Assembly: GCA_028715705.1 (NCBI GenBank)
Contig: JAQURJ010000004.1
Coordinates: forward strand, 1 to 55,851
Direction: 5' to 3'
Source: Phycisphaerae bacterium
GTDB taxonomy: Bacteria > Planctomycetota > Phycisphaerae > Sedimentisphaerales > Anaerobacaceae
Length of the DNA: 55,851 nucleotides
Shown in pieces: positions 40,744 to 44,967 of the stretch. Each line of letters opens with the position of its first letter. Position 1 is the first letter of the stretch. Both the position numbers and the translations under genes were made by a program. Under the pieces are notes generated by a model that searched no databases, was not told the DNA's origin, and saw nothing but the letters and a program-made list of their open reading frames with translations.

Positions 40744-41796
40744 ATGCAAAAGGATATCTACCGAATAATTGACGCTAATTTCAATCGGGCGAGGGAAGCG
40801 GCTCGTGTGATGGAGGAATTCTGCCGGTTTGTGCTCGATGATGGTCGGCTGTCTTCACGGGCGAAAGGGTTGCGCCATCGGCTGTGTGTGCTGGTAGGCA
40901 AGTTAAATTACGCAAATCTTGTCGCCAGCCGCGATACGGTCGGTGATGTCGGCGTTGGGCTTGAGATAAAAGAACAGCTTGGCCGTAAGGATACTTACGA
41001 CTGCTTTGTTGCGGCTGCGAGGCGGTTCGGGGAGGCTGTTCGTGTGCTGGCCGAAATGACGCAGATAGTTGAGCCAGCTATCAGCGGCCAGATAGAGCAG
41101 CTTCGCTATGAACTTTACACGCTGGAAAAGGACACCGCTGCGACAGCAAATACCCAGCAGCGATTTAAAACCGTCAGCCTGTATGTTCTTATCAGTTCAA
41201 GCAAGCCCGAAGAAGTTTTGGGGTTGGCCGAAGAATGTATCGCAGGGGGCGCGGATTGTCTTCAACTGCGGGCAAAGGATATTGACGACGCGAGCCTTTT
41301 GACGCTTGCGTGCGATTTTGCCAGCCTGTGCAGAAGCAAAAACGTGATAAGCATTATTAACGACCGAGCCGATATCGCCCTGCTTAGCGGAGCAGATGGC
41401 GTGCATTTGGGTCAGGGCGATTTGCCGCTGGCAGCGGTGGAGAATATCCAGTCACGTCCACTAATAACGGGTTTAAGCACTCATAACGCTGACGAACTCG
41501 AAGCGGCTTGCCTGTCGAGGCCAACTTATGCCGCGGCTGGTGCGGTTTTTGCCAGCCCGACAAAACCACAGGTTGAGACTGCAGGGCTTGAGTATCTTCG
41601 CCGGGCTGTCACCCGACTTAGGGAGAGCGGGGTTTACAGTGTCGCTATAGGAGGGGTAACTATTGAGAATGTAGAGAGTGTCGCCAATACAGGCGTTGAC
41701 GCGATAGCGGTGGGTTCGGCGATAACCAATCAGCCGCAGCAAAAATGCCAATCGCTGAAGAAAAATTTCCTGCGGGCAAAAAAAGCGGCTGACTGA
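40744..41796 (+). CDS. thiE: ThiD2-ThiE fusion, thiamine-phosphate synthase
   Basis: Couples HMP-PP and thiazole phosphate to thiamine phosphate. It has 350 residues. Residues about 1-125 are the ThiD2-like domain (YRIIDANFNRAREAARVMEE, FCRFVLDD, SRDTVGDVGVG), and residues about 145-345 are the ThiE TIM barrel (LQLRAKDIDDASLL, IINDRADIALLSGADGVHLG, GLSTHNADELEAA, GAVFASPTKP, VAIGGVTIENV). ThiE proteins with this N-terminal domain are known in several phyla, where it phosphorylates HMP-P. ATG 40744 follows a TATAAT by 7 bp and has no Shine-Dalgarno. No TPP riboswitch is visible. Confidence 0.9.
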   Translation: MQKDIYRIIDANFNRAREAARVMEEFCRFVLDDGRLSSRAKGLRHRLCVLVGKLNYANLVASRDTVGDVGVGLEIKEQLGRKDTYDCFVAAARRFGEAVRVLAEMTQIVEPAISGQIEQLRYELYTLEKDTAATANTQQRFKTVSLYVLISSSKPEEVLGLAEECIAGGADCLQLRAKDIDDASLLTLACDFASLCRSKNVISIINDRADIALLSGADGVHLGQGDLPLAAVENIQSRPLITGLSTHNADELEAACLSRPTYAAAGAVFASPTKPQVETAGLEYLRRAVTRLRESGVYSVAIGGVTIENVESVANTGVDAIAVGSAITNQPQQKCQSLKKNFLRAKKAAD

Positions 41797-42519: not shown

Positions 42520-44967
42520 ATGCAGAATAAATTGAAGGCCAAACTACAGGATAAAACGAATTTTGTTGTCTTTGCCGAGCTTACCGGCGGGCCTGGATTC
42601 AACATCGCACCCATCAGTAAATTCTTCAAAGCCTATAAAGAAAATAAAAATGAGCTTCCGGCTGGCTTTGACTTTGCGGTCGTGACCGCACCGCAGAATC
42701 CCGGCGGCGTTGCCAATATCGAGCCGGTGGATATTCTTGTACAGGCAAAGCTTGAGGGATGGATGGATGGTTTGGATTTCGTTCCACACGTTAGCTGCAA
42801 GGATCATAACACCGATGCCATCGTCAGCAGTATGATGACTTTTAAGAGGCTGGGCGTAAATAGCGTTCTGGCATTGACGGGCGATAAACCGGCTGCGTCA
42901 AGGGGCGTCTTTGAGGTTGAATCGATCGGGTTGGTAAAGCTGATAAGTAATATGAACAACGCCGAATACATTAAGGCAAAGACCGATGCTCTCGACAAGG
43001 TTCATCAGTTCTTCATCGGCGCGGCTGTCAGCCCATTCAAATACACCGAAAGCTCGCAGATGCAGCAGTATTACAAGATGGAAAAGAAAATCAAAAGCGG
43101 TGCGGGCTTTTTGATAACACAGGTGGGATGGGACTGGAAAAAGTCACTGGAATTGTTCCGGTATATGAAGGGAAACAATATCGACGTGCCGGTTATCGGC
43201 AATGTGTATTTGCTGAGCACTATCACTCCGGCTCCGCGTCTGATGCACGATATCAAGCTGCCGGGCTGTTTTGTCAGCGATGAATTGCTTTCCAAGGTTT
43301 ATTCTGAAACTGTTGATGACCATATCGAGCGAGCCGCGCAGCAGGTGGCGATGTATAAGGCTATGGGCGCAGCGGGTGTCGATGTCGGCGGGGTGCACGA
43401 CTGGAAGATGTTCGTAAAACTGCTCAATCGCGCAGCGGAAATCGGTAAAGATTGGGACCAATTCAAAGATAACCTTTGCTGGCCAGCGAAAAATGCGTGG
43501 TATCTTTACGATGATGACGGCAAACGCACGCAGCTTTCGGAAAAGAAAAAGAACCTCCACCAGAAATGCTTCAACGCCTTCCACCGTTCGGTGCTCGATT
43601 CCGATTACAAAGGTTTCCACGCATTCAAAGCGGTTATGGGAGCTATGGGTGCGAAAAAAGGCAAGGGGTTTGTTTACAGTGGATTTAACGCCGGCGAAAA
43701 GGCGATGAAGTATCTTATGTTCGATTGCCAGGAGTGCGGCGATTGTTACTTGCCAGAGAACTTTAGTTACTGTACAATCGGCGGATGTGAGAAAGGGCTT
43801 GACAATGCACCTTGCGGCGATTCGACAGTTGACGGATATTGCGGCAATAATCTTGAGCGTGTCTGCATAGGCGAGTTTATCTATGACGCGGCGGCAGCCG
43901 AAAAAGGCGGGCTGGCGAAACTGAGAAGCACGATCAATAAGCCGCGAAAAGTTGCCCTTGAACATTCATCGTCGATTTTGAACTATTTATTTGCAAAGGA
44001 TCACACAATGAAAAACGCGATAATCAATATCGGCGAATCGGTACACGCCTCGATACCAAAGACCGGCATTATAATGAAGGAACTTGCAGATCTGGGCAAA
44101 GACGCTTACAGCAAGCCTTCGGCGCAGCTTGATTATGTAAAGGCCCTCATCGAATCGCAGGCAGCCGACGGAGCTGATTATATCGCTGTCAACCTCGACG
44201 CGTTCGGCGAGAGCAACTTGCAGCTTGCCGTAGATATGATGGTCGAATACACTAAAATGGTTCGCAAATGGGGCGGCGGCGTGCCTATCTGCGTTGACAG
44301 CAGTAATGACGATGTACTGAAAGCGGGACTGAAGGAATGGTACGATACCGATGAACCGGTCAAAAAGCCTCTGCTCAACTCGGTCAAGATACATACGATG
44401 GATAATATGTTCCCGCTCAAAAAGCATTTCGATTATTCGTTCATTGGACTTTTGGTAAGCGAGGATAAGCCCACAGGCCCAGGCGGTTCGCATTCAGTCG
44501 ATGAGCTTTATAACCTCGCACGAACCATATTCGATAAGGCGACTGAATACGGCTTCAAGCCCGACGAGATATTTTTCGACTCGACGGTGTTCCCGCTGGC
44601 GATTGATATGCCGATGGAACCGGGCGTACCGGGTTATACGTACAGAGCGTTTGAGACTATTAAGAAAATCAAGACCGACCCTGCAATGAAAGGCGTGCAT
44701 TGTTCGCTGGGCGTAAGCAACTGCGTGCGTGACCTGCCAGCGAGAAAGGTCGGCGTGTGCCGCGCTTATGTGGCCAAGGGTATGGAGTACGGACTTGACG
44801 CCGGTATCGTCAACAGCAGCCACCATTACGGTGAGGTCGAGCCGGATGCGGAACTTCTGAAGATGGTCGATGCCTTCGCAAAGATGGACGGCAGCAGCGA
44901 ACGATTGATGGAAGCAATGCAGCTGATGGGTGACTTCTGCCGAAAAAGCAAAAAACCGGCAAAGTAA
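42520..44967 (+). CDS. MetF / MetV-like / MeTr-like triple-domain fusion protein
   Basis: An 815-residue cytosolic protein. Residues about 1-300: methylenetetrahydrofolate reductase TIM barrel (VFAELTGGPGFN, HVSCKDHNTDAIV, LALTGDKP, VSPFKYTESS, ITQVGWDW). Residues about 385-470: a cysteine-rich MTHFR_C/MetV-like domain (FDCQECGDCYLPENFSYC, GGCEKGLDNAPCGDSTVDGYC). Residues about 490-800: a pterin-binding barrel of the dihydropteroate synthase / methyltetrahydrofolate-corrinoid methyltransferase kind (INIGESVHASIPKTG, GADYIAVNLDAFGE, CVDSSNDDVLKAGL, FIGLLVSEDKPTG). This would join reduction of methylene-THF to onward methyl transfer. MetF-MetV pairs occur in acetogens; the third part in one chain is the unusual point. 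CAGGAGA precedes the ATG. Confidence 0.85.
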   Translation: MQNKLKAKLQDKTNFVVFAELTGGPGFNIAPISKFFKAYKENKNELPAGFDFAVVTAPQNPGGVANIEPVDILVQAKLEGWMDGLDFVPHVSCKDHNTDAIVSSMMTFKRLGVNSVLALTGDKPAASRGVFEVESIGLVKLISNMNNAEYIKAKTDALDKVHQFFIGAAVSPFKYTESSQMQQYYKMEKKIKSGAGFLITQVGWDWKKSLELFRYMKGNNIDVPVIGNVYLLSTITPAPRLMHDIKLPGCFVSDELLSKVYSETVDDHIERAAQQVAMYKAMGAAGVDVGGVHDWKMFVKLLNRAAEIGKDWDQFKDNLCWPAKNAWYLYDDDGKRTQLSEKKKNLHQKCFNAFHRSVLDSDYKGFHAFKAVMGAMGAKKGKGFVYSGFNAGEKAMKYLMFDCQECGDCYLPENFSYCTIGGCEKGLDNAPCGDSTVDGYCGNNLERVCIGEFIYDAAAAEKGGLAKLRSTINKPRKVALEHSSSILNYLFAKDHTMKNAIINIGESVHASIPKTGIIMKELADLGKDAYSKPSAQLDYVKALIESQAADGADYIAVNLDAFGESNLQLAVDMMVEYTKMVRKWGGGVPICVDSSNDDVLKAGLKEWYDTDEPVKKPLLNSVKIHTMDNMFPLKKHFDYSFIGLLVSEDKPTGPGGSHSVDELYNLARTIFDKATEYGFKPDEIFFDSTVFPLAIDMPMEPGVPGYTYRAFETIKKIKTDPAMKGVHCSLGVSNCVRDLPARKVGVCRAYVAKGMEYGLDAGIVNSSHHYGEVEPDAELLKMVDAFAKMDGSSERLMEAMQLMGDFCRKSKKPAK

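Follow-up and report, generated by a model that had tools for sequence, protein, structure and literature searches.

Split methionine synthases are already known. Phaeobacter inhibens has a three-part methionine synthase with separate PF02574, PF00809, and PF02607 plus PF02310 proteins, a DUF4445 reactivator, and no PF02965 domain (PMC5764234), while Ruegeria pomeroyi has a split methionine synthase composed of MtgC, MtgD, and MtgE (PMC12478193). MetVF-type methylene-THF reductases of acetogens have been described as types II-IV (PMC8760232), and an unfused pterin-binding protein appears in a gene-order figure for the HdrABC-MvhD-MetVF genes of Chloroflexi (PMC5736913). In the present study, it was found that a gene of a Phycisphaerae bacterium appears to combine, in a single chain, methylene-THF reductase with the folate half of methionine synthase, both of them known from textbooks on one-carbon metabolism. 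A literature search, in which subscription journals were thinly covered, found no published description of such a fusion, in agreement with what had been supposed when the gene was first noticed. Thus, it is the variant with the reductase fusion, not the splitting of methionine synthase, that appears to be new.

The window analysed here is a 55,851-nucleotide stretch of contig JAQURJ010000004.1, which belongs to a metagenome-assembled genome (G000; 95.7% complete, 6.6% estimated contamination). The gene occupies positions 42520-44967 of the forward strand as a single unbroken ORF of 815 codons, with an ATG start codon and a purine-rich, ribosome-binding-like AGGAG on its 5′ side. Three Pfam matches, each exceeding the curated cut-off, lie along the 815-residue protein: MTHFR (PF02219; residues 84-267, 1.1e-16), DUF5981 "MTHFR C terminal" (PF12225; residues 390-468, 7.4e-12), and Pterin_bind (PF00809; residues 541-735, 3.2e-9). 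The NCBIfam matches are all sub-threshold, namely PRK08645 with 93.5 bits (cut-off 453; the MTHFR part only, with no HcyMT domain) and PRK07535 with 87.8 bits (cut-off 259). Thus, no existing equivalog model covers the tri-domain protein. An AlphaFold model based on an alignment of 40 homologues has a mean pLDDT of 88 and a pTM of 0.88. Alignments of this model to whole MetH, with rmsd values of 17-23, were set aside as two-barrel coincidences.

Domain 1 (residues 1-310; 42520-43449, forward strand) is an MTHFR/MetF beta-alpha barrel, and model residues 3-307 match Thermus MetF with a Z of 24.4 (VIA-align). By alignment, H88, D120, and Q183 of E. coli MetF correspond to H90, D122, and Q201 of domain 1, and E28 is matched by motif to E20. 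I take their counterparts in E. coli MetF to be the flavin/folate residues; all four are kept in 57-58 of 58 full-length homologues. Domain 2 (residues 390-468; 43687-43923, forward strand) has eight cysteine residues, at positions 403, 406, 409, 418, 423, 432, 441, and 449, all of which are kept in 58/58 homologues and are presumed to be iron-sulfur ligands. Only the DUF5981 region is present, and the N-terminal 130 or so residues of stand-alone MetV are absent from the fusion. The 222-residue stand-alone MetV of a relative (L092) matches domain 2 at residues 132-184 only. Judging from these alignments, the middle domain is just the C-terminal, presumably cluster-binding half of MetV. A linker (residues 469-497; 43924-44010, forward strand) follows, and its motif SSSILNYLFAKDHTM persists 5′ of some stand-alone domain 3 genes in relatives (L093 and L100). 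Domain 3 (D3; residues 498-812; 44011-44955, forward strand) is a pterin-binding methyltransferase barrel. It has the complete D/N/D/N catalytic set, all on the forward strand: D593 (44296-44298), N620 (44377-44379), D687 (44578-44580), and N734 (44719-44721), equivalent to Asp75, Asn96, Asp160, and Asn199 of AcsE, respectively.

The best match to model residues 498-811 is the MetH pterin domain 3k13 (Z 29.1), and AcsE 2e7f has a Z of 27.8 covering residues 501-777 only; overall, MetH and AcsE are tied within 1-2 Z. The C-terminal extension to residue 811 is found in MetH pterin domains but not in AcsE. In the phylogenetic tree, fused and stand-alone D3 sequences form one clade (100/100) apart from the AcsE, Mtg-type, and MetH pterin domains, AcsE being a clade of its own (100/100), and the true AcsE of the relatives is encoded by a separate gene within ACS operons. 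D3 was thus ruled out as AcsE by its clade, the NCBIfam cut-offs, and the co-occurring separate AcsE genes. The first-pass annotation had read the chain as MetF, a MetV-like part, and a methyltransferase barrel in this order, and Pfam, the AlphaFold model, and the structure matches agree; its pterin-binding barrel is likewise confirmed by the Pfam match and by Z values of 27-29 to MetH and AcsE. Its cysteine-rich middle part is intact in the cysteines but represents only half of MetV, and its comparison of the barrel with AcsE-type proteins did not survive the phylogeny.

Is this architecture common? A scan for related loci in genome contigs retrieved 50 loci with 43-73% identity, most with the whole architecture and nearly all from planctomycete MAGs. 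In a near-relative set of 60 genomes, including G000, the fusion was found in 37. These numbers show that the fusion is neither a chance finding nor an assembly join. D3 itself is present in 54 of the 60 genomes, as an intact fusion in 34 and as a stand-alone gene in 23; among the latter 23, six also have a fusion, which is intact in three of them and degenerate in the other three. In a sample of the phylum, D3 was found in 7/294 genomes, all of one and the same order. In one relative (G030, L112:2047-5211), the fusion is a 1054-residue ORF with several in-frame insertions of about 30-90 codons between conserved blocks.

I next list the relevant gene content of G000. It has a 209-residue corrinoid protein with both B12-binding domains PF02607 and PF02310 (G000:C130; L086), a 301-residue homocysteine S-methyltransferase (HcyMT; PF02574; G000:C40; L106), a 621-residue HcyMT-MTHFR protein (G000:C38; L087:8627-10492; PRK08645, 720 bits against the cut-off of 453), and a RACo/RamA-type reactivator (PF14574, DUF4445; G000:C57; E 4.1e-76). 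The homocysteine, pterin, and corrinoid modules are thus separate proteins, the pterin module being fused to the reductase only, and the genes for the fusion, HcyMT, corrinoid protein, and RACo sit on different contigs. The genome search detected no MetH reactivation domain (PF02965), no MetE (no PF01717), no MttB, and no CdhD/AcsCD homologue (no PF03599). On the last result, acetogenesis was rejected for G000. The corrinoid acceptor that the first-pass annotation had suggested is therefore present and the CODH/ACS that it had considered is not; its pairing of the reduction with methyl transfer to a corrinoid protein is upheld by the co-occurrence and linkage of the partner genes, and its acetogen setting is not supported, since intact fusions are found without the Wood-Ljungdahl pathway in 32/34 cases. 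The end product is likely methionine and not acetyl-CoA.

Very probably, the gene specifies the front half of a cobalamin-dependent methionine synthase that is split, its remaining parts being made as separate proteins. This reading is built on the three domains, the catalytic residues, the co-occurrence and linkage of the partner genes, the lack of detected MetH, MetE, and CODH/ACS, and the natural separation of the two halves, and from these I infer the reactions themselves and the net direction of the pathway. Electrons would reach the flavin in domain 1 by way of the iron-sulfur domain 2, and domain 1 would reduce methylene-THF to methyl-THF. By analogy with MetVF (PMC8760232), the electron donor is likely to be reduced ferredoxin. 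D3 would then methylate the Co(I) of the separate corrinoid protein of about 209 residues, with methyl-THF as the donor, and the 301-residue HcyMT would pass the methyl group on to homocysteine. The HcyMT domain of the 621-residue HcyMT-MTHFR perhaps methylates homocysteine as well. The RamA/RACo-like protein would repair the oxidised corrinoid in place of the MetH reactivation domain. Since HcyMT-MTHFR is a second MTHFR in G000, the fusion need not be the sole source of methyl-THF. The scatter of the parts of G000 over separate contigs, in a MAG with 6.6% estimated contamination, also counts against this reading, as does the absence of a nearby SAM or cobalamin riboswitch.

The distribution of MetH supports this reading. 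In the 60-genome set, a real MetH with PF02965 was found in G039 alone (L105), and this genome has neither D3, nor the separate corrinoid protein, nor the RACo/RamA-type protein, the last of which is present in 55 of the 60. In the phylum sample, PF02965 was found in none of the 7 D3 genomes but in every one of the other 15 genomes of the class, among them G039. MetE and MetH are both absent in 49/54 D3 genomes. The D3 system stands in for MetH almost one for one, which could explain how a planctomycete order without MetH, and mostly without MetE, makes methionine. In 11/54 D3 genomes one or more partners were missing, plausibly due to incompleteness. Every genome has matches to the B12-binding domains, many of them in proteins of about 500 residues; the domain count is thus uninformative, and the specific corrinoid protein was used as the query instead. 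The clearest case is G009 (96% complete), in which the fusion is the only MetF homologue detected and the only D3/AcsE-like barrel, accompanied by one HcyMT, one corrinoid protein of the 209-residue family, and one RACo. No MetE, MetH, MttB, or CdhD was detected in the search of this genome. Thus, methionine synthesis in G009 would depend on the fusion.

The partner genes are linked in some relatives. L052 has an HcyMT gene (54% identical to that of G000); divergently from it follow the genes for the corrinoid protein (70%), Fhs, and FolD and, at the contig edge, the first part of the fusion gene (62% over 268 residues). In L090 and L091, a stand-alone D3 gene lies 11 nucleotides 5′ of the HcyMT-MTHFR gene. 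The order in L092 is HdrA-MvhD-HdrC-HdrB-MetV-MetF-D3, and that in L099 is Fhs-FolD-hydrogenase-MetV-MetF-corrinoid protein (76%), where the hydrogenase genes were identified by visual inspection alone. In L097, the tail of a corrinoid gene (82% over 49 residues) precedes D3 on the same stretch, past an assembly gap. The L097 genome (G010) is a one-contig assembly with runs of exactly 100 N every 2.5 kb or so, one of which conceals most of a corrinoid gene.

The same genes could in principle run in the catabolic direction, from a methyl donor via the corrinoid protein and D3 to THF, the MetF/MetV part oxidising methyl-THF to methylene-THF. The chemistry is reversible, and the corrinoid protein resembles MtgC and MtbC, its top models being methylotrophic (TIGR02370, MtgC, and MtbC), although all are below the cut-off. 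In Ruegeria, the homologues MtgC and MtgD act in methionine synthesis as well as in betaine demethylation, and metF2 lies downstream of mtgD (PMC12478193). Moreover, G013 has two consecutive mttB genes followed by the 209-residue corrinoid gene (L142; G013:C108). However, MttB, the methyl-donor family surveyed, is absent from G000 and from 38/54 D3 genomes, and neither the nearly one-for-one replacement of MetH, with MetE also missing in the 49 genomes above, nor the presence of Fhs, FolD, and HcyMT in the clusters is what a catabolic enzyme would lead one to expect. Thus, demethylation is an unlikely main role of the fusion. The reverse direction may be a second role in species whose corrinoid gene is linked to mttB, as in G013; there the corrinoid protein may serve demethylation as well, and the gene order suggests a methyl carrier common to demethylation and methionine synthesis. 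Separately, L127:3828-7502 (G034:C162) has an AcsE/MtgA-like gene of its own, a second corrinoid protein, and a 220-residue protein with a weak match to the reactivation domain of MetH; this is probably a methylotrophic operon.

Returning to the fusion, its two halves have been separated in nature. Fused and stand-alone D3 sequences are intermixed in the tree, which forces at least three changes. In some relatives with the Wood-Ljungdahl pathway, the stand-alone gene still carries traces of the fusion. In L100, the N-terminal 36 codons are followed, in a different reading frame, by the sequence from residue 465 on; this scar, with residues from about 38 to 464 gone, indicates that the reductase was removed by an internal deletion. 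The stand-alone D3 of L093 retains the fusion linker. In 14 of the 16 Wood-Ljungdahl genomes with D3, the intact D3 stands apart from the reductase, as opposed to 6 of the 38 others (Fisher 1e-6, a value that, like the one below, overstates certainty because the surveyed genomes are related and not independent). Conversely, just 2/34 intact fusions occur in genomes with the Wood-Ljungdahl pathway.

At least one catalytic residue of D3 has been lost in 12/58 fusions examined, which could mean that D3 binds pterin in a structural or regulatory capacity only, the MetF/MetV part being the sole enzyme. This is very unlikely. Among the surveyed genomes, the fused D3 is degenerate in three (G017, G035, and G052), and each of them has a second, intact D3, whereas the fused D3 is intact in 31/31 genomes where it is the sole copy (Fisher 0.003; the 31 include G056, in which the contig ends ahead of the fourth catalytic residue). 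In addition, the stand-alone D3 genes retain the D/N/D/N set, as does the window copy. Together, the detachment pattern and the degeneration pattern suggest that each half is retained in genomes that need the reaction it carries out.

The loci L042 (290-11634) and L043 have the order AcsD-AcsE-Fhs-fusion. Such a minority of fusions in Wood-Ljungdahl operons, together with the AcsE-like fold and residues of D3, could mean that the protein is MetVF and AcsE as one chain feeding CODH/ACS. I consider this extremely improbable, because three of the four catalytic residues of the fused D3 are gone in these very loci, AcsE has its own gene and forms its own clade, CdhD is missing from G000, and the co-occurrence of intact fusions with Wood-Ljungdahl genes is as rare as described above. 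The degeneration in L042 and L043 implies that only the reductase half likely serves the Wood-Ljungdahl pathway there, to which it appears to have been recruited. In L042, NADH- and molybdopterin-type oxidoreductase genes follow the fusion.

Joining the reductase and D3 in a single chain might have a further consequence. Low-potential electrons would make methyl-THF, which would be passed unreleased from barrel to barrel, and such a channelled unit would replace free MetF plus MetH order-wide and would have been repeatedly dismantled where the Wood-Ljungdahl pathway supplies methyl-THF. This is a speculative extension and on balance doubtful, for which the naturally detached halves offer ready-made tests of the channelling of a folate intermediate.

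How does the fusion compare with the described systems? Like the split synthases of Phaeobacter and Ruegeria, G000 has separate HcyMT, pterin, and corrinoid proteins, no PF02965, and a RamA-like reactivator; there, however, the pterin protein has no fusion partner and at most a metF2 gene as its neighbour, while in G000 a MetF barrel and a MetV cluster domain are attached to it. D3 is closest in structure, by a narrow margin over AcsE, to the folate module of MetH, and the corrinoid and HcyMT partners would correspond to the other modules, but these modules are separate proteins, the reactivation domain is missing, and the folate module is fused to a reductase. The MetF barrel and the cysteine-rich cluster domain resemble MetVF, and by this analogy the fusion is likely not driven by NAD(P)H on its own. 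It differs from MetVF in being a single chain, in having half of MetV and an added methyltransferase barrel, and in having no adjacent RnfC2 or HdrABC. From AcsE, with which D3 shares the fold and the four catalytic residues, it differs by its clade, by its PRK07535 score, and by the lack of CFeSP in G000. HcyMT-MTHFR (PRK08645/YitJ), also present in G000, is likewise an MTHFR fused to a part of methionine synthase; unlike the fusion described here, it joins MTHFR to the homocysteine module and not to the pterin module, and it has no MetV domain. Automated annotation would label the fusion as MetF or AcsE, so that methionine synthesis would wrongly seem to have a gap or acetogenesis would wrongly be suspected.

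In the window, a same-strand ThiD2-ThiE fusion gene (40744-41796, forward strand; Pfam) neighbours the tri-domain gene. This arrangement recurs in 13/50 fusion loci, and ThiD2-ThiE was also found near stand-alone D3 genes in L093, L102, and L136. It is probably not a functional partner; the synteny is conserved and indicates that fused D3 genes and some of the stand-alone ones occupy orthologous loci. The Rfam search found no SAM or cobalamin riboswitch near the tri-domain gene, and over 11 loci of relatives it detected tRNAs and one TPP element only, the latter being a TPP riboswitch near the ThiD2-ThiE/fusion locus of one relative (L013:4867-4987). In many genomes, the corrinoid gene is followed by a gene for a protein of about 567 residues that contains an HTH region as well as sigma-70 regions 2 and 4 (L086, L074-L078, and L109), which is possibly a regulator. 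In three genomes, the HcyMT gene is adjoined by two small genes (L106:8337-9671, L108:5181-6588, and L110:7753-9139) encoding a protein of about 162-170 residues and one of about 280-320 residues, the latter apparently a lipoprotein.
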